Positions 366 through 18,503 of a stretch of DNA of 64,000 nt are shown in pieces. This DNA comes from Candidatus Zhuqueibacterota bacterium. GTDB taxonomy: Bacteria; Zhuqueibacterota; Zhuqueibacteria; Residuimicrobiales; Krinioviventaceae. The position numbers were made by a program, and so were the translations under genes. Location of the stretch: positions 1 to 64,000 of the forward strand of contig JAFGSB010000077.1 in the NCBI GenBank assembly GCA_016934825.1, read 5' to 3'. The notes under the pieces were generated by a model that was not told the origin of the DNA, made no database searches, and saw only the letters and a list, made by a program, of their open reading frames with translations. Every line of letters starts with the position of its first letter. Position 1 is the stretch's first letter.

Positions 366-1364
366 ATAAAATTAGTCACCATGAAAGATATTGCAAACAA
401 GGCAGGGGTGTCCAAAGTCACGGTATCACGTGCTCTCAACAACAAACCGGATATCAATAAAGATACCAGAATATTGATTCTGAAAATTGCTGAAGAACTT
501 GGATATACTCCGAATGATGTCGCAAAAAGCCTTGCGACGAAAAGAACAAACACGCTCGGCATTATTGTACCGGACAGTCTCGACTCATTTTATCCCGAAA
601 TTGTCCAGGGTGTCGGAGATCAATGCAGAGAAAATGATTTTAGTATTGTATTATGTTACACGCATGGAGATGCTGATAAAGAAATTGAATATATCAAGCT
701 TTTGAAATCCAAGCGCGTCGACGGGATAATAATCTACCCTGTTCAGGAAGACGACCGGTATATCGATGAACTTCAAAACAGTATGATTCCGTTTGTTCTG
801 GTTGGACGCCATACAGATGCGCTGGATTGTGATTATGTCATTAATGATAATGTTTACGGCGCGTATTTGGCTGTAAACCATCTTTTATCACGTGGATATC
901 GAAAAATTATATATGTGTGCGCAAAGCCCACTGCATCAAGCGGAAAGGAGAGAATAGAAGGATGTAAAAGGGCTATTTTGGAAAAAGGATTACCTCTGCA
1001 TACACTGCAAATTGTAACCTGCAATCCCCAAATAGATTCTTGTTATCATGTTGTGCGGAATTTTCTTCCAAACCGCACTCAACTGAATGCAATATTTGTC
1101 TGGGATGATAAATTGGCGCTCGGAGCCTTCAGGGCTATTTATGAAGCCCGATTACGAATTCCTGCTGACCTTGCACTTGTTGGATACAATGATACTGAAA
1201 TAGCCAGACACTTGTACCCCCCATTAACCACTGTTCGGCACGCCTCTTATGACATCGGTAAAATTGCTGCTAATACCGTTCTGAAAAAAATTACCTCTAC
1301 GGATAATTTGGAATCGAGAAAAATAGTTCTCAAGCCGGAGTTGGTCGTAAGACAAACAACCTGA
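366..1364 (+). CDS. LacI-family transcriptional regulator, module 1
   Basis: A 332-residue LacI/GalR-family regulator: N-terminal helix-turn-helix with the AGVSKVTVSRALN core, hinge, then a periplasmic-binding-protein-like sensor domain beginning near TNTLGIIVPD. It likely controls the following receptor module in response to a sugar ligand. The start is unusual. The Shine-Dalgarno GGAGG (355-359) sits 6 bases before ATA at 366, whereas the first ATG (381) is 21 bases away. Starting at ATA gives the usual LacI opening (I-K-L-V-T-M-K-D-I-A) and the same 999-base length as the paralogue at 10,996. ATG 381 would give a 327-residue protein and remains possible, as does TTG 345. The sensor domain is roughly 70% identical to the paralogue by eye, so both may sense the same ligand. 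Confidence 0.9.
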   Translation: MKLVTMKDIANKAGVSKVTVSRALNNKPDINKDTRILILKIAEELGYTPNDVAKSLATKRTNTLGIIVPDSLDSFYPEIVQGVGDQCRENDFSIVLCYTHGDADKEIEYIKLLKSKRVDGIIIYPVQEDDRYIDELQNSMIPFVLVGRHTDALDCDYVINDNVYGAYLAVNHLLSRGYRKIIYVCAKPTASSGKERIEGCKRAILEKGLPLHTLQIVTCNPQIDSCYHVVRNFLPNRTQLNAIFVWDDKLALGAFRAIYEARLRIPADLALVGYNDTEIARHLYPPLTTVRHASYDIGKIAANTVLKKITSTDNLESRKIVLKPELVVRQTT

Positions 1365-1632
1365 GATTTTTTTACATAAATAATTGGGTTGTTGGTTTTG
1401 ATGGTGGGAAAAAATCTAAAAAAAATTTTGTAGGCCGTTTTTCTTGTATATAAAAAGCGGACCTGCAGAGAATTCCCAGAGTGATTCTCCATACTCACAC
1501 TTATAGACAATAAACAGGTACGATCAATAGAAGTACTTGTATAAAGCATGTTACTATAAGTGATTTAGGAAATTGTAATGATTAAAACCATAATAATTAT
1601 TTACAAATTTTAAATAGTTAAGGAGAAGATTT

Positions 1633-4600
1633 ATGTGTAACAAGTTTCAAGTGAGTTTACTAAAGCTTTTTTTGCTGATAGTATTTGTGCTTTTCACAAG
1701 TTACCTGAATGTTTTTGCAGCTCTTACCGGAAAGGTTGCCGGCAATATATCTGATTTAGAAACCAGGGAACCATTGTCCGGGGCCAATATTATTATAGAG
1801 GGTACGACAATGGGAGCTGCTGCTGACATAAACGGCGATTTCTTTATCCTGAATGTTCCGCCGGGAAGATACAATATCGCCGCTAAAATGATCGGTTACG
1901 AAACGATGGTACAACAGAATGTAACGGTCATTGTTAGCCTGACGACTTCATTAAGTTTCAGCCTGAAACAAACGACCATCGAAGGCGCGGAAGTTGTCGT
2001 TGTTGCCGGACGGGAGGTCATTCAAACTGATATTGCCAGCAGTCAAATGATACTTCAGGGAACCGATGTTGAGGGAATGCCGGTAAACAATTTTAAAGAA
2101 GTCTTGGACAAACAGGTAAGTATGCAGGAAGTTGATGCAAGAGGTTTGTTTATGCGCGGGCAGCGGCAAAGTTCAATTAGTATGATGGTGGATGGCGTGG
2201 AAACACGCGACAATGTTGATGATGTTGTTTATACGCGGATAAATCCCGACGAACTTGAACAGGTCGAGATAAACGCTGGCGGATTCGATGTCTCTTATGG
2301 TAATGCCACTGCCGGAGTTATTAATCTTGTCACCCGCGAAGGCGGCAAAAAATATAACGCCACATTTGACTACCGGCAATCAAAGGCGGCCCAAAAACAT
2401 TTCGGCCCGTCAATCAAGGATTATTGGGATCGATATTATCTGGATGGCTGGTCTAATCAATATGAACCCGTTGCCTGGAAACCTGCATTAACGGGCAATC
2501 CCGCCGATACTCTGGCAAACCGATGGGAAATCGCTGCACATAGTTTAAATGAGGACGATCCCTTTAGGGACCGACCTGAGCTTTTAAAAGAGCTATATAA
2601 ATACCTGATGCGTGACGAGGCAACGAAATATGGAGATAAATCGGATTATGTTCTGAGCGCAACTTTTGGGGGCCCGGTTCCTTTTCTTAAAAATACCACA
2701 TTTTTCAGTTCTTACCGGCGAGAAAATAATTACTATCTATATCCCGGTCCCCTGGATCATTTTTTCGATCAAAACGCCATGATAAAAATTACTTCTCAAC
2801 TGACCAAAAACATGAAATTATCGCTCAATTATCGATATATTGAATCGACCGGTTTAAATCGTTATGATTATTACCGGGATGAAGCATCCCGGGGTGATTT
2901 TAGTACCATCGATCCGGATTTCCAGACGGAAAAGAGATATTTGTATGAAGGTGTTGAACAGGTTGCCTGGTCAGGTTACGGGGCGTGGCCTTATACGTCG
3001 CAAATTGGAATTTCCACACCGATCCGAAATCAATATGGCCTGACGTTTACACATACTTTGAGTCCCAATACATTTTATGAAATCAAACTGATGTTCAACA
3101 ATTACCATAGCTGGGGCAACCAACCGACTCCCCGCGATACCACAAAACAGGTCACTTTAACGGACCCGGCCGATCCCGGTTACTCGGTAACACTTGGCGG
3201 GCCTATGGCGGAAGCGCCGCTGGGATTCTGGGAAAGAAATATTAATAATCCCCTGAACTGGATATTGGGCGGGTCATACAACTATTCTGAAAATAATTAT
3301 GTCAAGGATTTGATTATCAGGACCAATTTGATCAGCCAGATAAATAAATATAACCAGCTCAATTTTGGATTTCAGTATAATTATTCCGATTTCAAAAAAC
3401 ATGAGAATCGCGACTCCCCCGACCGTTTGGATAAATGGCACTGGCATGTCTATCCGCAAAACGCCGCTTTTTGGGCCAATGATAAGGTGGAATTTGAAGG
3501 TCTGGTGCTGGATGCCGGTCTTCGCGGTGATATCCGAATCCCCGACGAATGGTATGATTGGAGGCATGATGTCTGGAATCCGCTTTGGTCGGGTACGACA
3601 ACTGCGGACAGCAACAGTCTGGGCCCGCGTTACAAACCGCCCGTAAAGATGGTCCTGGCGCCCCGGCTGCGTGTTGCTCATCCGATTGGTGAAACGGCCA
3701 AAATCTTCTTTAACTGGGGTCATTATTATCAGGAGCAGCCGTACGAACGATTGTACCTTTATTATCGGCGTGATGCGCTCGGACAGATCACTTACGGCGA
3801 CCCGGAACTCCCGTTCCAAAAGGCCATTCAGTATGAAATCGGTTATGAACATAACCTGATGGATATGATACATATTGCGGTTTCGGGATATTATAAAGAT
3901 GTCAAGAATCTGCTGATGGATCATGTCAGTTATCGCAGTATTGAAAGTGTAGCCCAGGAAGAACCCCATTTTTATACATATGGAGCCAACCGGTATATGA
4001 ACAGCCAGGGACTTGAGCTCAGGCTGGAAAAGATTCGTGGACAATTTTGGCACGCCTGGATAAATTACAACGTTCAGGTTTTCAGCCGCGGAGTGTACGG
4101 TTTTAGTTCATTCTTTGAAGACCCAACCCACCCACCGAACGAATGGGATTATACCAGTGAAAATGTCAAACGGCCCGCAGAATCACGTATCAATTCCAGC
4201 CTCGAATTATATACTCCGGACAATTATGGGCCGAAAGTGCTTGGGTGGCATCCCGCATCCAATATGAATCTGAGTTTTCTGTTCTGGTGGCGTCAGCAGC
4301 CCTGTTTTACTTATAATCCTGACAGACTTATTGCCCCTTATGCGCCGCTGAACAACAAACGCTGGAAAGCGCACTGGGCCGTTAATATGTCGTTAAGTAA
4401 ACGTTTCAAGATAAAAGGCGCCGTAACACCCGTTTTTTATATGGAAGTTTACAATTTATTGAATACCAAAAATATGTGGCGGGGTGCCTTTAACGAAAAC
4501 CTGTCGGCTTTGGAGACTTATCTGCAAATTTTGGAAGAGGAAGGCGGAGAGCCCGGTGATAAGGGTGATATAGCTGAAAAATTGATCGGTAATAATCCGA

Positions 4601-4695
4601 CCAGAATGTTACCCTTTAATGGTTCACCGTGGTTTTTGTATTTGAACCCCCGTCAGATATGGGCGGGCATCCGTCTTGAATTTAACAGACAATAA
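1633..4695 (+). CDS. TonB-dependent outer-membrane receptor, module 1
   Basis: A 1020-residue TonB-dependent receptor, probably importing oligosaccharides across the outer membrane. A signal peptide (about residues 1-30) is followed by a carboxypeptidase-regulatory-like beta-sandwich (about 32-115, with GANIIIEGT and NVPPGRYNIAAKMIGYE), a plug domain (about 130-235, ending in the GG...YGNATAGVINLVTREG signature) and a long aromatic-rich region expected to form the 22-strand barrel. The start follows AAGGAG at good spacing. It is followed 53 bases later by the PNPY protein and then a PorV-like barrel. Length and layout match SusC-like receptors, but no SusD partner follows. Substrate cannot be read from sequence. 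The receptor in module 2 has the same architecture but a much more divergent barrel. Confidence 0.9.
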   Translation: MCNKFQVSLLKLFLLIVFVLFTSYLNVFAALTGKVAGNISDLETREPLSGANIIIEGTTMGAAADINGDFFILNVPPGRYNIAAKMIGYETMVQQNVTVIVSLTTSLSFSLKQTTIEGAEVVVVAGREVIQTDIASSQMILQGTDVEGMPVNNFKEVLDKQVSMQEVDARGLFMRGQRQSSISMMVDGVETRDNVDDVVYTRINPDELEQVEINAGGFDVSYGNATAGVINLVTREGGKKYNATFDYRQSKAAQKHFGPSIKDYWDRYYLDGWSNQYEPVAWKPALTGNPADTLANRWEIAAHSLNEDDPFRDRPELLKELYKYLMRDEATKYGDKSDYVLSATFGGPVPFLKNTTFFSSYRRENNYYLYPGPLDHFFDQNAMIKITSQLTKNMKLSLNYRYIESTGLNRYDYYRDEASRGDFSTIDPDFQTEKRYLYEGVEQVAWSGYGAWPYTSQIGISTPIRNQYGLTFTHTLSPNTFYEIKLMFNNYHSWGNQPTPRDTTKQVTLTDPADPGYSVTLGGPMAEAPLGFWERNINNPLNWILGGSYNYSENNYVKDLIIRTNLISQINKYNQLNFGFQYNYSDFKKHENRDSPDRLDKWHWHVYPQNAAFWANDKVEFEGLVLDAGLRGDIRIPDEWYDWRHDVWNPLWSGTTTADSNSLGPRYKPPVKMVLAPRLRVAHPIGETAKIFFNWGHYYQEQPYERLYLYYRRDALGQITYGDPELPFQKAIQYEIGYEHNLMDMIHIAVSGYYKDVKNLLMDHVSYRSIESVAQEEPHFYTYGANRYMNSQGLELRLEKIRGQFWHAWINYNVQVFSRGVYGFSSFFEDPTHPPNEWDYTSENVKRPAESRINSSLELYTPDNYGPKVLGWHPASNMNLSFLFWWRQQPCFTYNPDRLIAPYAPLNNKRWKAHWAVNMSLSKRFKIKGAVTPVFYMEVYNLLNTKNMWRGAFNENLSALETYLQILEEEGGEPGDKGDIAEKLIGNNPTRMLPFNGSPWFLYLNPRQIWAGIRLEFNRQ

Positions 4696-4748
4696 GACAA
4701 TACAATTAAGAATTTTAAGTTTTGAAATTAATGAATATTGGAGGCAAA

Positions 4749-6965
4749 ATGAACCGCAGATTATCATCAAGATGTATTTTATTCATCCTGATGTTTGGAA
4801 TTAGTTTTGCGATTTTCGGTCAAACGTATAAACTGGATATCGGTACCGAACGAATGCAGCTTTCGGTCAGCAGTGTCTTTGCCGACCGTCAGGATATATT
4901 ATTATTCCCGAGGGAACTGGATGTTTACCAGATTTCATCCAGAGAATTAACCTCATCGGTAGCAAAAGGAGCAGGGATAATAATAGCGGCTAAGGATTTT
5001 CCCGCAAAAGCATATTATAGAGATAATATTGCGGATCCGAACAAGTGGACGGTTGCCGATAATTTTTTTCCCTATTTTATGGTTGATGCTACGGCATGGT
5101 TCACGGTCGACCCGACACATTCAACAGTTCCGGTCGGCGGTGGAGCGCATCGGTACTGGAAACAACGGCCGCCTGAAAGAATAATTCAGAATCAAGATTT
5201 TACATCACGAAATTGGGTAGATGGCCGGGACTTTGACGGCCCCGCCGATATGCCAACAACCCAATACGGCACGACCACTTGTAATACTTTAATGGGCATA
5301 ACGGTTACGCAAAGAGCATGGGTTTTCGATAACGCAGATTTTGCTATATCGGAATATGTTTTCAAATATACAGGGCATACTGGCAGTTTTGATAATAACG
5401 GTGAGGAAATTATTTACAATGATCCGGTCAAAGATTGTTATGTGGGTATTAAATTCAGGCCGATTTTATCACATCAGGATGTGGTGGTAAATTCGTCCGG
5501 ATGGAAGGAAGGGACCGACGATTGGGTCGATTATGTGGACACAGAGGATGGGGAGCAACTGCGGGTGTTATACGGCTGGGACGGCGATGCCGGTTCCGAT
5601 TACCAACTTGAGGATGATGAAGGAGATCCGCTGTATTTTTCATCCGGCTTCTTTGCCGCTTCGGGATATCCCGGAATGGCCGTCCTGTATGCTGATAAAG
5701 CGCCGGATAATCCTGTTAATGATCCATCGCAGCCGCATCATTTTCATGTCTCTTTTGGCGCCACCTTTTCATCAAATACGCTGACACTCGGCAGAAACCT
5801 GACTATGGAAAATATTTACAACATTCTGGATTCCGATCAAAATTCTCCTTCGCCATTCGACTGGCAGGGATGGAAAAATGCGGGAAATCCTGCCGATGAC
5901 GCCCAATACTGGCATTACGGCACTCCGCATGCCACTAATGAAAGTCGTAATAATCAAGTGGGAACGCTTGCATTCGGCCCTTACCAATTCAACAACATTA
6001 ACGACAGTGTCCGGGTTGTGGTCTGTTATGCCGTCGGTATGTTAGGCTGGGAGCAAAATATTGATCTGGGTGCCTCGTGGAAAACGAAAACAATCGATAA
6101 ATCGGAAAAGAACAGAATTCTGCGCAGCGGCAGGGATTCGCTTTTCACACAGATTAAAAATATCAAGCAGATGTTCGATCCCAAATTTACGGCAAATAAC
6201 GGGAATTTAAAACAGACTTTATATGATATGGCATCCGAAATTGGAATTCCTCCGGCATGGCCCTCGAGATTACAATTAAATCCCGTTATAGGCGGTTGCC
6301 GGGTTGAATGGGCTCCCGTTGACGACGCGGTCGCTTACCGCGTTTACCGCCGCTCCCAAATTGATTTTGATATCGCCTCACCAAGCAAAGAGCCCGCTTA
6401 TAAGCTGGTTTATCAGTGCGGCGGCAGCAATCCCGGCAACGATATTGTGTACAGTCCTTCTGTCGATTCGACTGTATGGGTTGATCAGGATGTATATACC
6501 GTTTTCAATTACTGGTATACCGTAACAGCCGTTAATGAAGACGGCGCGGAAAGCAGCAAGTTCATTATGAGGATTAATCCGCTGCCGTCAAACGATACAT
6601 ACGGATCGATCATTCCTTTTGATAAAGAGTATGTTAATCTGAATGATGTACATGTCATACCCAATCCCTATAATGTCAGATCCATGAGGCTATATGATTT
6701 TTGGACAAGTGTGGGTGTGAAATTCACTGGCCTGCCGGCAAATTGCAGGATCCGCATTTATGCCCAGAACGGAACCCTGATTTTTGAGGATAACCATCGT
6801 TCACAGGAAGATCTTCCGGTCTCAATCTATCAATGGAATTTACGGACCTCGATGAATCAAACAGTTGCTTCGGGACTGTATGTTTATGTCATCGATCAAT
6901 GCCGGGACTTTTTAGACCGCGACATTGATGCGACCAAAGTCGGGAAACTGGTTGTGATACGTTAA
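4749..6965 (+). CDS. Exported PNPY-tail protein with FN3-like domain, module 1
   Basis: A 738-residue exported protein of a family I cannot name. A signal peptide ends near FAIFGQ. A large N-terminal region (about 30-500) contains a YGWDGD motif also present in its module 2 counterpart. A fibronectin III-like segment lies at about 515-620 (VEWAPVDDAVAYRVYRR). The last ~100 residues begin with VIPNPYNV and end in a beta-rich segment (SGLYVYVID...GKLVVIR) resembling a T9SS type A sorting domain. ATG 4749 is chosen because GGAGG lies 4 bases upstream and a signal peptide follows; an upstream TTG at 4722 lacks its own ribosome site. Its place between a TonB receptor and a PorV-like barrel, conserved in both modules, suggests a surface-exposed glycan-capture or receptor-lid role like that of SusD. 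That function is inferred. Confidence 0.8.
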   Translation: MNRRLSSRCILFILMFGISFAIFGQTYKLDIGTERMQLSVSSVFADRQDILLFPRELDVYQISSRELTSSVAKGAGIIIAAKDFPAKAYYRDNIADPNKWTVADNFFPYFMVDATAWFTVDPTHSTVPVGGGAHRYWKQRPPERIIQNQDFTSRNWVDGRDFDGPADMPTTQYGTTTCNTLMGITVTQRAWVFDNADFAISEYVFKYTGHTGSFDNNGEEIIYNDPVKDCYVGIKFRPILSHQDVVVNSSGWKEGTDDWVDYVDTEDGEQLRVLYGWDGDAGSDYQLEDDEGDPLYFSSGFFAASGYPGMAVLYADKAPDNPVNDPSQPHHFHVSFGATFSSNTLTLGRNLTMENIYNILDSDQNSPSPFDWQGWKNAGNPADDAQYWHYGTPHATNESRNNQVGTLAFGPYQFNNINDSVRVVVCYAVGMLGWEQNIDLGASWKTKTIDKSEKNRILRSGRDSLFTQIKNIKQMFDPKFTANNGNLKQTLYDMASEIGIPPAWPSRLQLNPVIGGCRVEWAPVDDAVAYRVYRRSQIDFDIASPSKEPAYKLVYQCGGSNPGNDIVYSPSVDSTVWVDQDVYTVFNYWYTVTAVNEDGAESSKFIMRINPLPSNDTYGSIIPFDKEYVNLNDVHVIPNPYNVRSMRLYDFWTSVGVKFTGLPANCRIRIYAQNGTLIFEDNHRSQEDLPVSIYQWNLRTSMNQTVASGLYVYVIDQCRDFLDRDIDATKVGKLVVIR

Positions 6966-7015
6966 TGAATTAATTCTATGGAATTTAACATATTTAATTA
7001 TGTCAGGAGATAACA

Positions 7016-8086
7016 ATGAGGAAATTCTTCATTAAACTTATTTATACGTTGGTTCCATTATGTGTTTTAAGTACGATACGGGCGGAAGAAGCGCCGCGCT
7101 CGATTGAAGGAGAGTTTGACCGGCTGGGGCAAACAAGTATGACGTTTCTGGATATCGATGTAGGGGCGCGAGCCGTTGCAATGGGCGGGGCATTTACCTG
7201 TATGGATAACGACGTGAACGCTCTTTATTGGAATCCTGCGGGAATTGCTAAAATAGAAGGCGGTTCATTGATGCTGAATAGTACCAAATGGATCGCAGAT
7301 ATGAACCAGTACGCCCTATCCGCAGCATATGGAACCAGTAATTTGGGTACTTTTGGTATGACTTTTCTGTTCATGGATAACGGCAGTATCGAACGTACTA
7401 TTCCAAGTGACAATCTGGAATTACATCCGGAAGGCTACTATCTGGACGGGACTTTTAATGTAAACCAGTGGGCGGCGGGGCTGGCGTATGCCCGGCAAAT
7501 TACCAATAAATTTTTAATCGGCGGTCAGTTAAAATATGTATACGAAGACCTGGGCGATGCCGATATTGCAGAACCCGAATGGGATGAAGAGGAGGGTGCG
7601 TACAAGTACGAAAGGGTGGAAGATGCTCAACACCGGGAAGGTACAATTGCCATGGATTTCGGCACAATTTACTATTTTGGATTTAAGGATTTCAGGATCG
7701 GAATGAGCTTTCGGAATTTTTCCAAAACTGTGACATATGGATTTGAGAGTTTTAATCTTCCGGTTAATTTCAAAGTATCTATGGCAATGAACATTTTAAG
7801 TCTGTTTCCGAAAATCAACAATCAGGAACTGCAGTTATCGGTTGTTGCGTCAAATCCATACGACGGCGGTGAAAGAGTGCATGTTGGATGTGAATATATG
7901 TTCAATCATATGATCGCTCTGCGCGCCGGATACCGGTCCAACAGTGATACGGGGAGTTTATCTGCCGGATTCGGATTGATGCCGCAGGTTTTTGCCGGAA
8001 AGAACATTCTGATCGATTATGCCTACTCCGATGCTGATGAGGTGTTCGGGGCGATCCACCGATTTTCGTTTGGATTCGCGTTCTAG
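7016..8086 (+). CDS. PorV/UPF0164-type outer-membrane beta-barrel, module 1
   Basis: A 356-residue barrel protein of the PorV/PorQ/UPF0164 type. A signal peptide (to about residue 23) is followed by the family signature around residues 45-80 (GARAVAMGGAFT, ALYWNPAGIA) and then alternating aromatic and glycine-rich strands, ending in FSFGFAF with a terminal aromatic as in outer-membrane barrels. PorV-family proteins shuttle T9SS cargo to the cell-surface attachment complex. Here it sits directly behind a protein with a T9SS-like tail, suggesting a dedicated pairing. Start supported by AGGAG. The paralogue is at 17,484. Confidence 0.85.
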   Translation: MRKFFIKLIYTLVPLCVLSTIRAEEAPRSIEGEFDRLGQTSMTFLDIDVGARAVAMGGAFTCMDNDVNALYWNPAGIAKIEGGSLMLNSTKWIADMNQYALSAAYGTSNLGTFGMTFLFMDNGSIERTIPSDNLELHPEGYYLDGTFNVNQWAAGLAYARQITNKFLIGGQLKYVYEDLGDADIAEPEWDEEEGAYKYERVEDAQHREGTIAMDFGTIYYFGFKDFRIGMSFRNFSKTVTYGFESFNLPVNFKVSMAMNILSLFPKINNQELQLSVVASNPYDGGERVHVGCEYMFNHMIALRAGYRSNSDTGSLSAGFGLMPQVFAGKNILIDYAYSDADEVFGAIHRFSFGFAF

Positions 8087-8143
8087 TAGCCGGTTTTTTT
8101 AATTCGTGTTCTACTTTTAATTCTGTTCATCAGGAGGACATTT

Positions 8144-8272
8144 GTGTTGAAATTTAGATTTTATTTAAAACCTGTTGTGTTTTTCCTTGTTGCGAGGGTT
8201 TAATTGAATCTAACTATAATTGATATATTTCCCGGAACTGAAGAAATATCAAATGCCATTACAATTCCATGA
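8144..8272 (+). pseudogene. Decayed 5' end of a secreted beta-helix protein gene
   Basis: AGGAGG at 8132-8137 precedes GTG 8144, which opens a signal-peptide-like stretch interrupted by TAA (8201-8203). The same frame then continues with IIDIFPGTEEISNAI to a TGA at 8270-8272. The intact gene at 8,520 has VIEVFPGNNIADAML at the same distance from its start (24 codons here, 23 there). This is best read as the remains of a duplicated copy of that gene. The rest of 8,087-8,519 shows no clear coding sequence. Confidence 0.55.
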
Positions 8273-8519
8273 CTGTATGATATTATTCAGCGAAACTTGG
8301 GAGAGTATTCGGAAACGTCAACTTTGACCATCGCCATGGATCAGACGGACCGGGAAGCAGAACAGTAATGGTTATCCTGACTGTTCCTTCAACCATGAAC
8401 GAGAAAGTAAGGACACAAATAAACAGATCATGATTACCGAAACAAATTACAATATTAAATGATCAGGTTACAAATTAAACCATAAATAAAAAACCAATAA
8501 TTAATTAGGAGGTAGCAAA

Positions 8520-9926
8520 ATGAAAAACAAATTGTTTTTGACACTGTTATTTTGTGTTGCATTAACCGGTTTTTTATCAGCACAAAGTGTTATCGAAGTT
8601 TTCCCCGGCAATAATATTGCCGACGCTATGCTGACAGCATGGCCGGGGGATATTATCGAATTGAAAAGCGGTACGCATGTACTTAATCAAACCCTGGATG
8701 TAACAGTAGATCTTACCATCCGGGGAGAAGAGGGTGCAACCGTGATCTGTGAGGTCCCGGGTACAACGGGCGACGCGATACATGTGAAAGCCAATACACA
8801 TTTTAAAAATATCATTTTCATCACGGATACTACCCGCGCCGAGGATACATCATGTATCCAAAACATGTATGGTTCCGTCGCTGCAGGTGATGAAGTGATG
8901 GCGGACAAAAATAACATTTTTGTTGATGCCTGTCAATTTATCGGATTTTACGAGGCGATATTCTTAATCGATCCGGAGGACAATGAAAATGTGGGGTACC
9001 CTTTGGATTCCCTTTATATTTCCAACAGCCTTATTTATGGCGGAGGCTTTTATAAAACACTACGCGGAATTAATGTTGAATACCGGCAGGCCCGTTATGT
9101 CAATGTACAAAACTGTACATTTTGGAACCTGGGCGGCGAATCTATGAAAATTTATGGCAATGACCAGGATTTGAATGATTACCTGCATTTACAAGTGGAC
9201 CATTGCACATTCTTTGACGCCGGTACCAATCCTCCAACTGCCGGACAAAATGGTCTTGGTATTTATGTAAAGTATACGGATGGCGATGATGCTATCAAAA
9301 ATTGTGTGTTTTATGTAGTAAGTGATTTTGCAATCAAAGCATCGGGCGGCAATTATAATGACACATACTGGGATTACAACATTGCCGATAGCTGCGGGTG
9401 GAAAGCAGATTGTAGCACCTGTCGGGCCTGGCACTCCAATATTACTTCAACCGGCCCCAATAGTTTAATCAGCGACATTAAGCTGACAAATCCGGATGCA
9501 GGCGATTTCAGACTTTTGGATGGTTCACCTGCAATTGGTACGGCTTCCGACGGTACCGATCGCGGAAGTTCGATTACGGTATGGAACCCGGGAACGTGGA
9601 GTCGTGAACCGTCAACAGGTGTAGAACAGGATCAAAATAAATCCGTATTTGAATTTGCACTTGGTCAGAATTATCCGAATCCGTTCAATCCAACGACAAC
9701 TATCGAATACCAAATACCAAGCAGTTCAAGCGTCAAACTGGTTGTCTATAATCTTATCGGCCAGGACATAGCTACCATAGTTAACGAAGTACAACAGGCC
9801 GGAATTCATCATGTGAATTGGAATGGAATGGATGATTCCGGTAAACAGGCATCTTCAGGCGTTTATTTTTATCGTTTACAAGCCGGTGACAATGTCGAAA
9901 CCGCAAAAATGATTTTAATCAGATAG
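8520..9926 (+). CDS. Secreted parallel beta-helix protein with T9SS sorting domain
   Basis: A 468-residue protein with a signal peptide (to about residue 21, ending LSAQ), a right-handed beta-helix region (about 25-340) and a T9SS type A sorting domain (about 378-468: QNYPNPFNPTTTIEY, then SSGVYFYRLQAG). The helix shows repeated hydrophobic-N rungs such as VQNCTFWNLGG and VDHCTFFDAGT, reminiscent of chondroitinase-B/alginate-lyase-like (PL6) and related DUF4957/DUF5123 folds. It may be a lyase or a surface glycan-binding protein; no catalytic residues can be assigned with confidence. The start has a strong AGGAGG site. It closes module 1 and is followed by a 10-bp hairpin. Confidence 0.8.
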   Translation: MKNKLFLTLLFCVALTGFLSAQSVIEVFPGNNIADAMLTAWPGDIIELKSGTHVLNQTLDVTVDLTIRGEEGATVICEVPGTTGDAIHVKANTHFKNIIFITDTTRAEDTSCIQNMYGSVAAGDEVMADKNNIFVDACQFIGFYEAIFLIDPEDNENVGYPLDSLYISNSLIYGGGFYKTLRGINVEYRQARYVNVQNCTFWNLGGESMKIYGNDQDLNDYLHLQVDHCTFFDAGTNPPTAGQNGLGIYVKYTDGDDAIKNCVFYVVSDFAIKASGGNYNDTYWDYNIADSCGWKADCSTCRAWHSNITSTGPNSLISDIKLTNPDAGDFRLLDGSPAIGTASDGTDRGSSITVWNPGTWSREPSTGVEQDQNKSVFEFALGQNYPNPFNPTTTIEYQIPSSSSVKLVVYNLIGQDIATIVNEVQQAGIHHVNWNGMDDSGKQASSGVYFYRLQAGDNVETAKMILIR

Positions 9927-10004
9927 TATTATTAAATCTTTGAAATTGTAAAGATTCGTAAAGAAAGGATTTAGAGGCTTAAACAAGAAAAATGAGACAA
10001 TGCA

Positions 10005-10027: not shown

Positions 10028-10203
10028 CATCACTTTATTCAGTCAGGTTATCCTTTGGTGGTTTGCTACTCGAGGGAGCCCATCTCCGTTTTTTGGTAAT
10101 TATAAAAGTGATAAATAATCAGAATCAATAGTTATTTTCGTTGTAATTGTTGATTAATACGGCAGTATATATAGAATTATACATTCAAAAAATGATTGAA
10201 AAC

Positions 10204-10290
10204 GGAAATACCGATTTTACCGGTTTGTATTTTTACAAAATCGAAGCGGCATCATTCACACAAACTTAAAAAATGATGCTTGTAAAATAA
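10204..10290 (+). pseudogene. Remnant of a T9SS sorting-domain C-terminus
   Basis: Read from 10,204 the frame gives FTGLYFYKIEAASFTQT, a stop, then KMMLVK and a final stop. It aligns with the tail of the gene at 20,758 (SGVYFYRLEAGSFVKS then VKMILMK), with one internal TAA (10,267-10,269). It is the decayed 3' end of a secreted T9SS cargo gene. Upstream sequence to 9,927 is too decayed to follow. Confidence 0.65.
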
Positions 10291-10300
10291 TGAATCTCCT

Positions 10301-10340
10301 CCGGTAAGTTTTGATATTTTGGGGGGTTACCGGTTTTTTT
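10301..10340 (+). terminator. Probable rho-independent terminator
   Basis: CCGGTAA (10,301-10,307) can pair with TTACCGG (10,327-10,333) and is followed at once by seven T residues. It lies 10 bases beyond the stop of the sorting-domain remnant, consistent with the fossil terminator of that lost gene. The loop is long (19 bases). Confidence 0.45.
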
Positions 10341-10733
10341 GATTGCCTTTTGTCCGAGTGACAATATCAACAACTTGCCGGAGATTTTTTTTAAATTTTT
10401 TAGGTCGACAGAGTGTACCATATTTTATTGGCAGTGAACATATTTTAACCTGCAGAATAACAATTATCACAAATTGATTGTTATTCTACAGGTTATTAAA
10501 AGTTTATATATGAAGATAATTTTGTAAACTTTTCTGGTTAAAAAAGTAATTTTAACAATGAGATCAGGATATAATTAAAAATATTTAAACTAAATTTTGC
10601 CCGATTTACCAAAACAGGTAAAAATTTTAAAATGGATGAGCAGTAAACTGTTCTTTGACATTAATTTAAATATTTTGTTCAACTCGATTTTTCAAATAAA
10701 ATAAATGATTTCTATTATGATTATTTTTCCGAG

Positions 10734-10743
10734 TAACCGGTTA
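10734..10743 (+). promoter_or_regulatory. Possible auxiliary LacI operator
   Basis: A perfect 10-bp palindrome TAACCGGTTA followed by ACGG repeats the ACCGGT/ACGG vocabulary of the main operators. It lies about 176 bases upstream of the operator at 10,910-10,939, a distance compatible with DNA looping by a tetrameric or paired repressor. The function is inferred. The surrounding 10,341-10,877 stretch is AT-rich and shows nothing else. Confidence 0.35.
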
Positions 10744-10877
10744 ACGGACATTATCTGTATAAAAATTTTTTTTCTAAACATGATGTAAAAAAAACGTATG
10801 TACAGTTGGAAAAAATGTAAATAATTGTCATGTGAACTGTAATTATCCCAAAATCTTATAAAAAGATCAAAAAGAAC

Positions 10878-10906
10878 TTGACATTTGTTCTGGAAAATAT
10901 TATACT
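10878..10906 (+). promoter_or_regulatory. Sigma70-type promoter of LacI gene 2
   Basis: TTGACA (10,878-10,883) and TATACT (10,901-10,906) are 17 bases apart. The palindromic operator begins four bases after the -10 element, so the arrangement matches the promoter of LacI gene 1. Confidence 0.85.
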
Positions 10907-10909
10907 GAA

Positions 10910-10939
10910 ACCGGTTACGGTATCGATAACGTTACCGGT
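10910..10939 (+). promoter_or_regulatory. LacI-type operator, module 2
   Basis: A 30-bp imperfect palindrome with ACCGGT at each end and ATCGAT at the centre; only a few positions break the symmetry. It overlaps the expected transcription start. The left half (ACCGGTTACGG) is identical to the left half of the operator at 271, so each regulator may bind both sites. Confidence 0.8.
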
Positions 10940-10995
10940 TAAATTAGAAAATATAATTCATTATTATCAATAAAATTCTTCTAAGGAGATATGTA

Positions 10996-11994
10996 ATTAA
11001 GTCGATTACAATACAAGATATTGCATATAAAGCAGGCGTTTCCAAGGTTACAGTTTCCCGCGCCCTGAATGATAAACCTGATATCAATAAAGAAACAAAA
11101 AAACAGATTTTAAGTATAGCCAAAGAGCTTGGATACACCCCCAATGATGTAGCGAAAAGTCTTGCTACGCGAAAAACAAATACGCTGGGTATTATCGTGC
11201 CGGATAACCTGGATTCTTTTTATCCGGAGATTGTACAAGGGGTTGCTGATGTTTGTCGTGATAAAGATTATAGTATTGTTTTATGCTATAGTAATGGTGA
11301 TGCGGATAAAGAATTCGAATATATCAAGCTTTTAAAAGCAAAAAGAGTTGATGGAATAATCATATATCCAGTACAGGATGACGATAGATATATTATTGAA
11401 CTTAATAATCTTTCACGGCCATTTGTACTGGTCGGGCGACATACTGACGCGCTGGATTGTGATTTTGTTATAAATGATAATGTACATGGCGCTTTTTTGG
11501 CCGTGAATCATCTTATTGAAAGAGGCCATAAAAAGATTGTTTATGTGTGCGCGAAACCGACTGCATCAAGCGGCAGGGAAAGGATTGAGGGGTGTAGAAA
11601 AGCCATGATTGATAATGGTTTGCCGCTTGATTCTCTGAATGTAGTGACATGTAAACCAAAGATCGATTCCTGTTATAATGTTGTAAAGAATATCCTGTCA
11701 ACAGAAAATGATATTGAGGCATTATTTGTTTGGGATGACAAATTGGCGATTGGTGCGATGCGAGCCATTTTTGAAGCTGGATTACGTATTCCCGAAGATA
11801 TTGCATTGGTTGGATATAATGATACGGAAATTGCCCGACATTTTTCCCCACCTTTAACAACAATAAGACACGCTTCTTATGAAATCGGAAAAATTGTTGC
11901 CGGAATTGTCCTTGATAAACTCACATCTGATGATATTGTGGAGACAAAACAGATTATTCTCAAACCAGAACTGGTAGTCAGGAAAACGACCTGA
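10996..11994 (+). CDS. LacI-family transcriptional regulator with ATT start, module 2
   Basis: A 332-residue LacI-family repressor, paralogue of the one at 366. The helix-turn-helix region (ITIQDIAYKAGVSKVTVSRA) is encoded upstream of the first in-frame ATG (11,197), which would delete the whole DNA-binding domain. From the in-frame stop at 10,954-10,956 to the helix-turn-helix there is no ATG, GTG or TTG in frame. AAGGAG (10,983-10,988) lies 7 bases before ATT at 10,996. Starting there gives exactly the same 999-base length as the paralogue from its ATA. AUU is a known rare start codon, best known from infC. The sensor domain has the same order of motifs as the paralogue (DSFYPEIVQG, GRHTDALDCD, AKPTASSG). 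It probably autoregulates and controls the second receptor module. Confidence 0.9.
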   Translation: MKSITIQDIAYKAGVSKVTVSRALNDKPDINKETKKQILSIAKELGYTPNDVAKSLATRKTNTLGIIVPDNLDSFYPEIVQGVADVCRDKDYSIVLCYSNGDADKEFEYIKLLKAKRVDGIIIYPVQDDDRYIIELNNLSRPFVLVGRHTDALDCDFVINDNVHGAFLAVNHLIERGHKKIVYVCAKPTASSGRERIEGCRKAMIDNGLPLDSLNVVTCKPKIDSCYNVVKNILSTENDIEALFVWDDKLAIGAMRAIFEAGLRIPEDIALVGYNDTEIARHFSPPLTTIRHASYEIGKIVAGIVLDKLTSDDIVETKQIILKPELVVRKTT

Positions 11995-12068
11995 ACTTTT
12001 CACAGATATCGGAAAATAATATAAATACTGATTTCCCAAAATTAAAAATTATGTGAAGGAGTAATTGT

Positions 12069-15068
12069 ATGTCGTTGAATTTTAAAAGAATTGGCTTATT
12101 TGTGGTATTAATCGGGGTATTCTTTTATTTTTGGAGCGGTAAACCATTATTTGCGGGTATCACAGGAAAAATATCCGGTAAGGTTATTGCTTCGGACAAA
12201 ACAGAACTTCCCGGCGCTAATATTATCATTGAGGGGACTTCTCTGGGCGCCGCGTCTGACATTAACGGAAATTATTATATTATTAACGTTCCGCCCGGTC
12301 AATATACAGTTGTTTGCAAGATGATTGGTTATGCAAACATCCGCAAAACGAATGTTTATGTCAGCACCGATCTGACGACAGAAATTAATTTTGAACTGAA
12401 TCCTGTTGTGATAGAGGGAGAAACAGTGACGATCGTCGCGGAACGTCCCGTCATTCAACAGGATGTCGCCGGTTCGGAATCGGTTATGCGTGAAGAAGAT
12501 GTTCAGGTTTTTTCACAGGATGCTTTTGGCGACTTTCTCAGCACCCAGGTCGGTATTACCATGTCTGCGGATGAGGACGGCAGCGGTATAAGTATTCGCG
12601 GCGGTGATATCAGCGAAACCAATGTTGTTCTGAACGGTATGTCTTTACGAAACGCCCTGACCCAGCAGGCCAATCTTGGAATCAGTATGACTTCTATTAA
12701 AGAAGTGACGATCAGCTCAGGCGGCTTTACGGCGGAACATGGGGATATACGTTCAGGATTGGTCAATGTTATTACCAAAGAGGGATCCAGAAATAATTAT
12801 TCTGTTGCCATGGATCTCAGGTACGGACCGGCGCAGAAAAAACATTTTGGTCCGAATCCATATTCGGTTAACGGACCCGTCTGGAATGTTTATTGCGGGC
12901 CAAAAGCATTCGAGGGAGTGACGGAGGAGGATGTGGCAAACGGTAATTATGCTTTCCCTTTTCTGGGTTGGAATAATTGGGCGGAACAGCGATTAAAAGA
13001 TTCCGACCCGGATAATGATTATACGCCACAACAGTGGATGGAGTTGTGGCGCTGGCGGCATCGTAATATTGATTATGCCAATAAACCGGATTATATTCTG
13101 GATGGCAGTATTGGTGGTCCGGTACCCCTTATTAACGCCACTTTTCTGCTTTCCCAGCATTATGAAAATTTGCAGTTGGCTTATCCTTTCAGCCGGAAAA
13201 ATTCCATACTCAGTTCCACACAGGGTAATGTTTCTTTCCGTTTATCCCCCAGCGCCAAGCTGACTTGGACTAACCTGTACACACTGGAGAGAGGTATTGC
13301 CACCCAGGAGGATAATTATTCCTTTGGTATGGTAACCGGCACGGCTGAAGGGAACGTGCTGGCACGGGATATCCGCTGGCAAATGCTGTATAATCCCTAC
13401 GGCATTAATCCGATAGAACGTAATACATATTACTCCGGATTGAATTTGAGTTACGCACTGAGTCCGAGCACATTTTATAATATTTCCTTTAGCGGAAGTT
13501 ATTACGACACCTTTCAGGGCGTCGAGAAATATCGGGATACATCTCTAAAGTATACAATTGGAAATGTTGAAGTTGATGAAGGTCCCGAGGGATTCTCGTA
13601 TTTACGGAACCAGTATGATATGTTTGACCAATTCTGGATTAACGGCGGCGGCAATCAGATTGACGATTCGGAATATTATCAGTTCCGGTTGAAAGGTTTA
13701 CTGGAATCGCAAATTACATTTCGAAATCAGATCAAGATCGGGTTTGAAACAGTTTACACCCTGTATAATATGCGGGCTGCAAAAGTTCACCAGGATGTAC
13801 TGTATGACGGGGATTATGAACCGCCCTACTTTTTAGAGGGCGATGTTCCCATGAATACGTTTTATTTTGAAAATCATCCGTTACAATTTGCCGCATTTAT
13901 ACAGGACAAACTGGAATATTCGGGTATGATCGCCAATATGGGAGTGCGGATGGATTTGTTCGATCCCATGACGGCGGCATGGGATGTTGAAACCTGGAAT
14001 GATGAATACACCTTTGAGAATTGGAAAGAGGATATCGATTTCACAAATGAGCAAAAAGGTGGAAACGCATTACAGTATAAAATTAGTCCTCGGTTGGGTA
14101 TATCCTTTCCGTCTACCCCGACGAGTAAATTTTATTTTAATTATGGTCATTTTTACCAGTTGCCTACCCCGGAAAGACTGTTTAATATTGATTTGAGCGG
14201 CGGGTCACCGCCTTTTACCATACCCAATCTCAAAGCAGATTGGCCGCGAACAGTATCTTACGAAGTTGGTTTTGAAAAAGCAATAACCGAATCTTTCTTG
14301 TTCCGAATTTCAGGTTATTATAAAGATGTAACAAATCAATTGAGCGAACAGTCATGGTACGATTACGGCAAAAATCTTTTATTTGAAACCGAAGCTAATA
14401 ATAATTACGAAGATATACGGGGAATTGAACTTCGTCTTCAGCAAAGACAGGGTCGTTTCGGAAGCGGGTGGATTGATTTTGAATATATGGCAACCAGCGA
14501 GGGATGGACCGGATTTGCCGCAGTACACGAAAATTGGCAATATGAACAGGAACAACGTGAAAACGCGGAGCAAACCAGAAACTGGCCTGTTCCACAGGTA
14601 AGAATGGTCTATAGTTTTCGTTTACCTGTAGGATTCGGGCCTGTTGTGGCAAATTTTAAACCTCTCTCGGATTGGGCTTTACAGATAAATGCTTATTGGC
14701 GGGCAGGCGGTAAACGAATTTTTGATTCTTCAGCACCCATTTGGGACCGGCATTATGTTGAAAGAATAGACCGTCATAATGTTAACCTGTTATTAAGAAA
14801 AGGATTTTATCTGGGTGATTTAAACTTTAGTTTATATATGCGGATCCGCAACGCGACCAATTTTAAGGGTCAAATTTATCCTTACAGCGGCGAAGAATAC
14901 AGGAATTCACTTCATCTGCCTTGGCTGCAGGGAGATAAAAAAGGAAACGACAAATATGGCGAAGGTCCGAGTGATGAGAAGCCCTGGATCAATGCCGGCT
15001 GGCAGACATGGCGACAGTATATCAATCCGAGGAATGTGCTTTTTGGATTGGAAATCAATTTTAAATAG
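12069..15068 (+). CDS. TonB-dependent outer-membrane receptor, module 2
   Basis: A 999-residue TonB-dependent receptor. A signal peptide (about 1-32) is followed by a carboxypeptidase-regulatory-like domain (about 34-115: GANIIIEGTSLGAASDING, NVPPGQYTVVCKMIGYA), a plug (about 130-235, ending GGFTAEHGDIRSGLVNVITK) and the barrel. The N-terminal domain closely resembles that of the receptor at 1,633, but plug and barrel diverge strongly, suggesting a different ligand or partner. AAGGAG precedes the start. It is followed by the module 2 PNPY protein and PorV-like barrel. Confidence 0.9.
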   Translation: MSLNFKRIGLFVVLIGVFFYFWSGKPLFAGITGKISGKVIASDKTELPGANIIIEGTSLGAASDINGNYYIINVPPGQYTVVCKMIGYANIRKTNVYVSTDLTTEINFELNPVVIEGETVTIVAERPVIQQDVAGSESVMREEDVQVFSQDAFGDFLSTQVGITMSADEDGSGISIRGGDISETNVVLNGMSLRNALTQQANLGISMTSIKEVTISSGGFTAEHGDIRSGLVNVITKEGSRNNYSVAMDLRYGPAQKKHFGPNPYSVNGPVWNVYCGPKAFEGVTEEDVANGNYAFPFLGWNNWAEQRLKDSDPDNDYTPQQWMELWRWRHRNIDYANKPDYILDGSIGGPVPLINATFLLSQHYENLQLAYPFSRKNSILSSTQGNVSFRLSPSAKLTWTNLYTLERGIATQEDNYSFGMVTGTAEGNVLARDIRWQMLYNPYGINPIERNTYYSGLNLSYALSPSTFYNISFSGSYYDTFQGVEKYRDTSLKYTIGNVEVDEGPEGFSYLRNQYDMFDQFWINGGGNQIDDSEYYQFRLKGLLESQITFRNQIKIGFETVYTLYNMRAAKVHQDVLYDGDYEPPYFLEGDVPMNTFYFENHPLQFAAFIQDKLEYSGMIANMGVRMDLFDPMTAAWDVETWNDEYTFENWKEDIDFTNEQKGGNALQYKISPRLGISFPSTPTSKFYFNYGHFYQLPTPERLFNIDLSGGSPPFTIPNLKADWPRTVSYEVGFEKAITESFLFRISGYYKDVTNQLSEQSWYDYGKNLLFETEANNNYEDIRGIELRLQQRQGRFGSGWIDFEYMATSEGWTGFAAVHENWQYEQEQRENAEQTRNWPVPQVRMVYSFRLPVGFGPVVANFKPLSDWALQINAYWRAGGKRIFDSSAPIWDRHYVERIDRHNVNLLLRKGFYLGDLNFSLYMRIRNATNFKGQIYPYSGEEYRNSLHLPWLQGDKKGNDKYGEGPSDEKPWINAGWQTWRQYINPRNVLFGLEINFK

Positions 15069-15243
15069 ATACGGAAAATTGTTCAGATTGTATTTTAATT
15101 CATTGAAGCGTTCACATATTATAATGCTCATATGAATTTTACAAAACACTAATAATCAATACATTTTAAAAATGATACCTATATCGTTTAAAAATTTATC
15201 CTTTAGATCCAGATTGGTGACCTCAATGAAGGAGGAAAGAATA

Positions 15244-17457
15244 ATGAAATTTGTCAAAACAATTAATTTAAAAATTTTAATTATTATTTTTAATATAACA
15301 TTGTTGTTCTTTGGTACCGTAAATGCGCAGGAAAAAATTATTAATCTGAACCTTTCCAGATATTATTATCGTGTTTCCGGTCCCAATGAAGGTATGGTCG
15401 ATTATGATGAGAATGAACATTCGGGGATGTTTCCAAACGGCACCTATTATATGTGGACCGTGTCGGAAATTTATGAATTTTTACTGTTCGGGCATATTAT
15501 TTTAGCGAATGGTGAAGAACAGCGAAATTACCAGAGAAAACTTGGCGATGGATACTATCAGGAAGCGCCGTTCGGTGTTCGGGAAATCAGCAAGTACCCT
15601 CCGCCGCAGGTATTTGTAGACGGGGCTCAATCCACGCCTGACTTTGACGGTATCATCGATCCGGATATCAAGGCGGATAAAATGTTCATCGTTTATAGAA
15701 AGCAAAGTCCGTGGATGCATCTGCGTAACGAAGGTTATCAATTCGTCAATCAATATTACGGTGATTTTATGATTATGAATTCCACCTATAAATTGACGTT
15801 TGATGACGATGCTTATCCTGAAACCAGTCCTGATCTTGACGCCGACACCACCCAGACAGTAACTGATTTTTACGTTCTCAAAGCCTATCGAGTGGGACAA
15901 ACATCAATAACAGGTAAAACCGGTACGGATCCCAACGGGAAATGGTTTATCAACCACGGCGCGTACTGGGCAAGCACAATGGTAACTCCTTCGCTGACCG
16001 GTGTATCAAGTCCGAGAAAAGATTTGGTCATAACCTACGGCTGGGATGGTAACCACCCCAACGTCACACAATTTACGACCGGCGGCCCCCCATTTGACGA
16101 TACGGGAGAACCCCGGTTTACACCAATAGCCGATGGTGATTTGATCTCGACAAATTATTCAGGTTTTGCCCTGTTACACTGTGATATATCGCCTGACGAT
16201 AAATCCGACTGGGTGCCCAATAATCCGTATGGTTCCTATGTTCATGTGCGACATCTCCATTTTTCCGCTGATGCCGTACTACCGGGGGGGAAAACTACCT
16301 GGGATTATTTTATATCCCCGGGTCCGCAAAGTTTGCCCTACCAGTTGAGTACTTGGGAAGATGGCAGCGATACCAATCCCATAACCCTTGAAAGTAAAAC
16401 CCCGGCCCAGGTATGGGGCGGATGGAAAGAAATGAAAATGGGCGATAGTGTATCAGTTGTTCACGCAATTGGTTCGGGTAGTATATCGAGACAGGAAGCC
16501 CGTACGCTTGGTGCCAAATGGGCGAAATGGTATCAGTCGGGAGATGTGCCGGATGCTTATTATGATGATAATGTAAGTTCAGGATTGGGTAACGTACTGG
16601 CTACGGATGACATAAAAAATCAAATCGTAGCCCGCGGAAAAGATTCACTCAAAGTCGCCATGCAGCGGGCACAGGAGTTATGGGAAAATAATCTGGAATG
16701 TCCCCGTCCTTACCCGTCACCGGATTTGTATGTCACATCCGGTCCCTATTCCTGCACCCTCGAATGGGATGATATCGGCACAAAATACCCGGACCATGAA
16801 GGTGGTAATGTTATTGCTTATCGTATCTACAGAAAAATTGGTCATGTTGAAGATGAATATCCCACTGAAGCGGGGCAAAATTTATACTGGGAAAGAATAA
16901 AGGAAATTCCTGTTGATTCCCTGGCTACATCTCCCAAAGGATTATTTATGTATGTAGATGCAGGTCTTGAGGTTGGTGAAGATTATCATTATGCAGTTAC
17001 CGCCGTTTCCGATAAACGTTGCGGAATTGACGGAACCGGCCCCTACCTGGAAAGTTCACAATGGAGCAACCGCTCAACATTGCCGGCCCGTCCTATTATC
17101 CCCGGTAAAGACAATCTGAATCAAATCGCAGTAGTGCCGAATCCGTATTATATCTACGGTCAATTGATGAATTTTTCCAGTGATAATAACCGGTTAATGT
17201 TTGTGAATTTACCGCCGTACTGTACGTTAAAAATATATAACGTTACAGGCGACCTGGTGCACACACTCGTACACGATGATGGTTCTTCAGTCGATTTTTG
17301 GGATCAGATTACCCAGAACAATCAATTTATTGCCAGTGGTGTTTATATTCTTGTTGTCTCTGATGCCCAGAAACTGATCGCCGATGAAAGCGGTAATTTA
17401 ACAATTCGTCAAAAACTGTCTGACAAGGCAATTATAAAGTTTACAATTATCCGGTAA
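15244..17457 (+). CDS. Exported PNPY-tail protein with FN3-like domain, module 2
   Basis: A 737-residue counterpart of the protein at 4,749, almost identical in length and domain plan. A signal peptide ends near GTVNAQ. A long N-terminal region contains a YGWDGNHP motif; an FN3-like segment lies at about 500-600 (CTLEWDDIG, VIAYRIYRKIG, YHYAVTAVSD). The C-terminal segment starts at VVPNPYYIYG (about 631) and ends in a beta-rich tail (ASGVYILVVSD). ATG 15,244 is preferred because AAGGAGG lies 8 bases upstream; the upstream frame to 15,172 has no signal peptide. Family unknown. Consistent placement between receptor and PorV-like barrel suggests a cell-surface partner of the receptor. Confidence 0.8.
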   Translation: MKFVKTINLKILIIIFNITLLFFGTVNAQEKIINLNLSRYYYRVSGPNEGMVDYDENEHSGMFPNGTYYMWTVSEIYEFLLFGHIILANGEEQRNYQRKLGDGYYQEAPFGVREISKYPPPQVFVDGAQSTPDFDGIIDPDIKADKMFIVYRKQSPWMHLRNEGYQFVNQYYGDFMIMNSTYKLTFDDDAYPETSPDLDADTTQTVTDFYVLKAYRVGQTSITGKTGTDPNGKWFINHGAYWASTMVTPSLTGVSSPRKDLVITYGWDGNHPNVTQFTTGGPPFDDTGEPRFTPIADGDLISTNYSGFALLHCDISPDDKSDWVPNNPYGSYVHVRHLHFSADAVLPGGKTTWDYFISPGPQSLPYQLSTWEDGSDTNPITLESKTPAQVWGGWKEMKMGDSVSVVHAIGSGSISRQEARTLGAKWAKWYQSGDVPDAYYDDNVSSGLGNVLATDDIKNQIVARGKDSLKVAMQRAQELWENNLECPRPYPSPDLYVTSGPYSCTLEWDDIGTKYPDHEGGNVIAYRIYRKIGHVEDEYPTEAGQNLYWERIKEIPVDSLATSPKGLFMYVDAGLEVGEDYHYAVTAVSDKRCGIDGTGPYLESSQWSNRSTLPARPIIPGKDNLNQIAVVPNPYYIYGQLMNFSSDNNRLMFVNLPPYCTLKIYNVTGDLVHTLVHDDGSSVDFWDQITQNNQFIASGVYILVVSDAQKLIADESGNLTIRQKLSDKAIIKFTIIR

Positions 17458-17483
17458 ACGGTAAATTAGTAGAGGAGTTCATA

Positions 17484-18503
17484 ATGAATCGTATATATGA
17501 AATTATTATTGTCACTTGTGTCATTTTGATTATTGCAAGCGGTGTACAGGGTCAGCAGTTAAATAAAACGGCACAGACTGCCATGAAATGGTTATCCATC
17601 CCGGTCGGCGCCGAGCCTATTGCCATGGGTAACGCTTATTATTGTGTGGGTGGAGGAGTTGAAAACATTTTTTGGAATCCGGCCGGTATTATAGATGTAA
17701 AATCACCACAGCTTTTTGTTAATCATATTGCCTGGATCGCCGATATCAATCAGGATGCGGCGGCATTCGCTATGCCGTTAGGAAATATTGGTATTATATC
17801 CGCAAGCGCCCGGTTTGTCGATTTTGGCGAGCAGGACGGCACAAGGCTGGCATCAAATGCGGACGGCTGGGAATACACGGAAAAATTTTCACCATCATCC
17901 TATCAACTGGGTCTGGGATTTACGCAGCGGATTACCGACAGATTCTCCTATGGACTGGTAATCAGTTATGCGAATGAAAATTTAGGCACCGTAAATTATG
18001 CCAATGTTTTAAGCGGAGATTTCAAAAATCCGGAAGCGAAAGAAACATCTATGGGCCTTTTTAATGTCGATTTCGGTATTTTGTATTATACAGGATACAA
18101 GGATTTACGATTGGGAATGACATTAAAAAACTTTTCTGAGGAGAAGGGGTACGGGAACGTCGGCAATCCAATACCGATGGAATTGCGTTTCGGAATGGCT
18201 ATGAATATTTTACCCATGTTCTTGGATTCGGCCACAAAACATAAGGTAACGTTAACATGGGATCTGTCTCATCCCCGGGATTATAGTGAACGTCTTCATT
18301 TCGGACTTGAATATATGTTCAATGAGTTTATTGCGCTTCGTACCGGTTACAAAACCAACTATGACGAACAGGATGTTTCATTTGGTGCCGGTTTGGTTTC
18401 CGGCGTTGGTTTTGGTTCAACGAAAATTAAGGTCGACTATGCCATGTTGCCGTTCGGCGTTTTCGATAATGTCCAGGTTTTTTCGTTAGCTGTAGATTTC
18501 TAA
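17484..18503 (+). CDS. PorV/UPF0164-type outer-membrane beta-barrel, module 2
   Basis: A 339-residue PorV-like barrel with a signal peptide (to about residue 23), the N-terminal signature (GAEPIAMGNAYYCVGGGVEN, IFWNPAGI) and an aromatic C-terminal strand (VFSLAVDF). It shares the motif IAD-N-Q after the signature with the module 1 protein (7,016). GAGGAG precedes the start. It probably assists T9SS export or surface placement of the neighbouring PNPY protein, an inference from family and position. Confidence 0.85.
   Translation: MNRIYEIIIVTCVILIIASGVQGQQLNKTAQTAMKWLSIPVGAEPIAMGNAYYCVGGGVENIFWNPAGIIDVKSPQLFVNHIAWIADINQDAAAFAMPLGNIGIISASARFVDFGEQDGTRLASNADGWEYTEKFSPSSYQLGLGFTQRITDRFSYGLVISYANENLGTVNYANVLSGDFKNPEAKETSMGLFNVDFGILYYTGYKDLRLGMTLKNFSEEKGYGNVGNPIPMELRFGMAMNILPMFLDSATKHKVTLTWDLSHPRDYSERLHFGLEYMFNEFIALRTGYKTNYDEQDVSFGAGLVSGVGFGSTKIKVDYAMLPFGVFDNVQVFSLAVDF

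Follow-up and report, generated by a model that had tools for sequence, protein, structure and literature searches.

Which protein captures the substrate for a SusC-size TonB-dependent receptor when SusD is missing? SusD is a surface lipoprotein with an all-alpha TPR-type fold (PF07980/PF12771), and the SusCD pair is often taken as the route of glycan import in the FCB group. The stretch of DNA analysed here (the window; 64,000 nucleotides, positions 1 to 64,000 of contig JAFGSB010000077.1 of a Candidatus Zhuqueibacterota bacterium) encodes two such receptors. Each is followed by an exported protein with a PNPY motif near its C-terminus (PNPY protein) and by a PorV/PorQ-family barrel. The earlier note read this arrangement as a SusD-less glycan-uptake machine, with the PNPY protein as the capture or lid subunit and the barrel as its dedicated secretion or anchoring factor.

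All eight genes of the proposed repeat are in place, and the order receptor, PNPY protein, PorV barrel is found at both positions, always on the forward strand. Module 1 begins with a LacI-family regulator (366–1364), followed by the receptor of 1020 aa (1633–4695; CarboxypepD_reg-like domain, Plug and barrel), PNPY protein 1 of 738 aa (4749–6965) and barrel 1 of 356 aa (7016–8086; NF033709, 3.9e-52). PNPY protein 1 has a signal peptide without lipobox, a beta-rich body, an FN3-like domain and a C-terminal domain (CTD) of the type IX secretion system (T9SS) type at 6633–6965, which reads PNPY ... ASGLYVY ... GKLVVIR. Downstream of its module, 8520–9926 encodes a beta-helix protein whose tail is of the ordinary T9SS type A. 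Module 2 consists of a LacI-family regulator (10996–11994), the receptor of 999 aa (12069–15068; CarboxypepD_reg-like domain and Plug), PNPY protein 2 of 737 aa (15244–17457) with its T9SS-type CTD at 17125–17457 (PorZ model 1.6e-5; TIGR04183 3.7e-4) and barrel 2 of 339 aa (17484–18503; PorQ model 6e-27, PorV model 1.1e-16). Directly downstream lies a lipoprotein with an IPT/TIG domain and an NHL-type beta-propeller (18519–19766), a frequent fourth gene of the module.

Upstream of regulator 1, the region 211–330 (forward strand) contains a promoter-like TTGACA-17-TATTAT, directly followed by repeated CcpA/LacI-type operator-like words, ACCGGTTACGG and ACGGTAACGG. This region is matched as a 71% DNA repeat at 10850–10941, within the promoter and operator-like region of regulator 2 (10850–10945, forward strand). 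Both LacI genes have rare apparent start codons with good Shine-Dalgarno spacing. The ATA at 366–368 is the best start of regulator 1 by homology and by this spacing, and an in-frame ATG follows shortly within the ORF; the ORF of regulator 2 begins with ATT at 10996–10998, and its frame has no ATG, GTG or TTG before 11197, which is already within the protein. The rare starts possibly serve initiation control, as in infC. The regulator was described earlier as part of the repeated unit; it is present at both window copies, but is not a constant member of the conserved module, with a LacI-like gene anywhere in the fetched stretch at only 5 of the loci outside the window.

The two window modules are old paralogues. 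Their DNA is alike (about 72%) only in the LacI gene and the promoter region, and the proteins are 24–34% identical: 28% for the receptors, about 24–29% with many gaps for the PNPY proteins and 34% for the barrels, which also belong to different parts of the PorV tree. A recent tandem duplication is therefore ruled out. The near-equal lengths of the two PNPY proteins are a coincidence, as the sequences have strongly diverged and lengths in the family vary from about 609 to 770 aa and reach 1158–1290 aa in a second branch. Nor is the module merely repeated twice. Plug and PorV searches of the assembly (5.39 Mb, 95% complete), in which a Plug recurs 4.7–6.4 kb ahead of a PorV on the same strand, followed by individual reading of the loci, give ten complete copies and an eleventh that a contig end cuts short. 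The long middle proteins of the second branch (L003:4718-8587, L007:9548-13021 and L009:1-3261, one of them cut by a contig end) carry the same tail, but their body looks unrelated; the modules around them are otherwise identical. At L013:4570-10193 a module-type receptor (562 bits) stands without a PNPY protein, and three similar proteins of ~350 aa follow it in a row.

SusD is absent well beyond the window, as the earlier note observed for its two modules. Neither SusD_RagB (PF07980, even at E<=1) nor SusD-like_2 (PF12771) matches anything in the whole assembly, whereas Bacteroides, the positive control, matches both. A SusD fold hidden in the PNPY protein is not found either: the AlphaFold2 model of PNPY protein 2 (59 sequences; pLDDT 78.6, pTM 0.81) is predicted to consist mostly of strands with a few helices before the FN3-like domain, and FN3 pairs head its 50 best PDB fold matches, which include no SusD structure. 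Elsewhere in the phylum PF07980 is found in 22 of 59 genomes and PF12771 in 13 of 59, so the PNPY module is not simply the only solution of the phylum; both coexist. No CTD protein was seen at the four SusD loci fetched, which are short stretches.

The receptors belong, by their domains and length, to the SusC-size class. Both have the CarboxypepD_reg-like and Plug domains above the Pfam cut-offs, and module receptors are 950–1114 aa long, while the other Plug-bearing frames of the genome have a median length of 759 aa. The SusC model TIGR04056 gives them 67 and 39 bits, far under its cut-off of 368, and searching the PDB directly with the receptor sequence returned no match.

The body of the PNPY protein is new to the domain collections, with no Pfam or NCBIfam family above the curated cut-off for either window member and no clear carbohydrate-binding domain. 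Foldseek gives a weak fold likeness (TM about 0.2) to GH94/GH65 phosphorylases and cyclic glucan synthase, which could hint at a sugar-handling beta-sandwich. PNPY proteins have signal peptides, and none of the 62 has a credible lipobox: a lipobox-like string occurs in two, both times within the signal-peptide region. The PNPY motif pointed out in the earlier note is real, with PNP[YFW] close to the C-terminus in 60/62, but it does not mark a new kind of tail. When 25 module tails and 15 ordinary T9SS tails of the same organisms were aligned, the profile-profile comparison of the two sets gave 98% probability, and both share PNP[YF], SGxY and a terminal K-hydrophobic-K/R. All ordinary tails match TIGR04183, and 21 of 25 module tails do so at E<=0.01 (best 1.1e-6; 20.4 bits for the window member against a cut-off of 23). 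The PorZ model matches 22 of the 25, and the best solved structure is the PorZ CTD (5m11, E 6.4e-4). Hence, judged by profiles, the PNPY tail is a divergent T9SS CTD closest to that of PorZ, and module tails and ordinary tails are evidently two kinds. The likeness to PorZ proper (two beta-propellers and a CTD; NF052228 >260 bits) is confined to the CTD.

The barrels fit such a tail. Both window members exceed the NF033709 cut-off of 90 (178 and 175 bits), 18 of 18 sampled module barrels match this model at E<=0.001, and the module barrel profile matches PorV 6h3i at 4.3e-29. The equivalog cut-offs for PorV and PorQ proper (250/220) are not reached, with 61 and 94 bits for the window member. 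In the tree, all 53 module PorVs, barrel 1 included, form a single clade (96/95 support, 98% of bootstraps), and the eight other PorVs of the genome stay outside, including the canonical-type PorV, which stands at L014 beside a T9SS M6-like protein. The genome also encodes SprA (893 bits against a cut-off of 200), and 16 of the 18 PorV genes examined in it, module or not, adjoin a protein with a T9SS-like tail. PorZ itself is surface-exposed via T9SS with an intact CTD (PMC5121618) and is anchored one to one by PorQ (PMC5562754), and cognate PorV-like barrels have been supposed in a review to shield such CTDs from cleavage (PMC10202324). Together, the PorZ-like CTD, the PorV/PorQ family and the separate clade support the barrel as a putative dedicated secretion or anchoring factor.

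The association of the three genes holds far outside the window, and PNPY proteins are not found mostly without receptors, the finding that would have spoken against the module. We fetched 40 loci from related genomes (eleven contributing), chosen by PNPY/CTD-family matches alone. Counted for full-length members only, because the profile was built from module proteins and its weaker matches were followed up in part, a module-type receptor on the same strand lies no more than 6.5 kb from 59 of 60 PNPY proteins in 12 genomes (this genome giving ten), and a PorV barrel is near 57 of the 60. The receptor is immediately upstream in 53 of the 60, including every copy in this genome, and little DNA separates the genes (median gaps 33 and 26 bases). 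Over 49 modules the distances of receptor, PNPY protein and PorV correlate pairwise (Spearman 0.54–0.77; 0/500 permutations as high); the value for CTD tail and PorV is 0.54, no stronger than for other pairs. Where an array has two receptors but a single PorV (L042, L047, L054 and L063), the CTD genes track the receptors one to one. Two loci, L038:1-19501 and L041:1-19991, depart from the usual plan with two or three PNPY genes per receptor or a PorV ahead of the PNPY gene. The gene order is conserved class-wide, and the family is present phylum-wide: of 59 genomes taken from across the phylum, 56 contain it according to a profile of 59 members. A collection scan with the two-member alignment gave three relatives, one of them a candidate division KSB1 MAG, and the plasmid collection gave none. 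We found no published description of such modules in the titles and abstracts of journal papers, with subscription journals covered in small part.

The neighbourhood points to sugars, in line with the proposed glycan setting. From 20746 to 55654 (forward strand) module 2 is followed by a carbohydrate locus, which contains beta-helix, melibiase/GH31-like, GH2, GH88, heparinase II/III-like and GH42 genes and several proteins with ordinary T9SS type A tails. Near other copies there are GH106, GH109, GH31/melibiase-like, GH127, pectinesterase and GH2 genes. Within the locus, GH88 and the heparinase II/III-like protein are uronate-type activities, and two DUF2264-like proteins and a sodium:solute symporter are encoded there as well.

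We suggest, as the rather probable explanation, that the module is a SusC-class importer with a T9SS-delivered surface partner, held by its cognate barrel next to or over the receptor. The SusC-size receptor would form the pore of an outer-membrane nutrient importer, most likely for an oligosaccharide, and the PNPY protein would be its surface partner in place of the SusD lipoprotein. After Sec passage the PNPY protein would be exported through the SprA translocon by its CTD. The neighbouring PorV/PorQ-family barrel would then capture the CTD and hold the protein on the surface, in the way that PorQ secures PorZ; the CTD would presumably be retained and not cleaved. The PNPY body would lie over or beside the receptor, bind the substrate and perhaps move as a lid, and in many copies the TIG/beta-propeller surface lipoprotein may assist. 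We suggest that the module works like a SusCD system, but it is not one, because the two features that define a SusD partner, its family or fold and its lipoprotein nature, were tested and are absent.

We infer the contact between the PNPY protein and the receptor from their genes lying together and being inherited together, a pattern to be expected of any co-regulated cargo as well. Thus the PNPY protein might be an ordinary co-regulated T9SS cargo, such as a surface adhesin, a binding protein or an inactive enzyme, which harvests without touching the receptor, while PorV is a shuttle only. A T9SS-type CTD and an adjacent PorV need no receptor contact, CTD/PorV pairs without receptor exist in the same genome (L014, L015, L017, L018 and L019), and the several CTD genes per receptor at L038 and L041 also speak against a strict lid model. 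Yet in the paired arrays the CTD copies go with the receptors and not with the PorVs, the receptor is immediately upstream in 53 of the 60 cases and at every copy in this genome, and the genome has no SusD to serve its SusC-size receptors. We consider such a cargo unlikely, though it deserves to be kept in mind.

The part of the lid could instead be played by the TIG/beta-propeller lipoprotein, as BtuG does on BtuB (PMC10404256), with the PNPY protein as an accessory. The fetched loci contain 21 such lipoproteins, and their fold is that of BT_3476 and BACOVA_00264, the 'auxiliary nutrient binding proteins' of Bacteroides. However, the lipoprotein is missing from most modules. In this genome, module 1 of the window and six of the eight complete copies outside the window do without it, which makes this assignment very improbable. 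Least probable of all, the PorV-like barrel and the PNPY protein would be assembly or sorting helpers of the large receptor and not uptake parts. BamG, a FadL-family barrel, does hold a large surface protein beside BamA (PMC12578637), and PorQ/PorZ function in cargo processing (PMC5562754), but the large number of divergent copies in each genome, and their link to receptors and sugar genes, suit substrate specificity better than a general role in assembly.

The importer with a T9SS-delivered partner has no full counterpart among the systems compared. With the SusCD/RagAB importers ('utilisomes') of Bacteroidota it shares the SusC-size receptor with a CarboxypepD_reg-like N-domain, one adjacent surface-partner gene per receptor, surface lipoproteins, glycan-degrading genes and a sugar regulator; it differs in the absence of SusD, in a partner which is beta-rich, not a lipoprotein and equipped with a T9SS-type CTD, and in the additional PorV-family barrel. 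PorQ–PorZ of the P. gingivalis T9SS attachment complex is likewise a one-to-one pair of a PorV-family barrel and a surface protein with a CTD of retained type, the very CTD that module tails match best. Unlike PorZ, the PNPY protein has an FN3 and a beta-rich domain instead of two beta-propellers, is linked to a TonB receptor and occurs in many copies per genome. Type B CTD proteins with their cognate PorP/SprF shuttles (F. johnsoniae, P. gingivalis) show the same succession of a CTD gene and a dedicated anchoring-barrel gene, but the module tail is of the type A/PorZ kind and the barrel of the PorV kind. BtuB–BtuG of Bacteroides resembles the module in its non-SusD surface partner, which is a known lid; however, BtuG is a beta-propeller lipoprotein, BtuB is a receptor of normal size, and there is no T9SS link.

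More tentatively, such importers might operate phylum-wide, with the SusD lid replaced by an unrelated beta-rich, T9SS-delivered protein whose place at the surface is secured by a dedicated PorV-family barrel; we give this broader statement a somewhat less than even chance. If this is true, a secretion system would here build the substrate-capture half of a TonB transporter, for the first time to our knowledge. It would mean a widespread and much-copied alternative to SusCD in a largely uncultured phylum, in which TonB uptake is joined to type IX secretion, and would provide a testable function for a protein family that the domain collections do not assign. TonB transporters with lids have been described as exclusive to Bacteroidetes, the lids being lipoproteins (PMC10404256). 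For type A CTDs of F. johnsoniae one PorV for all has been described (PMC12618676), and in contrast to this current picture type A-like CTDs would here have many cognate PorV-family partners.

The modules would also explain why these genomes carry many PorV paralogues. Among the receptor-free loci, the PorV-family barrels at L017:5948-7777, L019:7148-9154 and L018:5756-7063 are fused or extended (435–668 aa) and adjoin large CTD-tailed proteins of up to 2359 aa, which makes them further candidate cognate PorV/CTD pairs.
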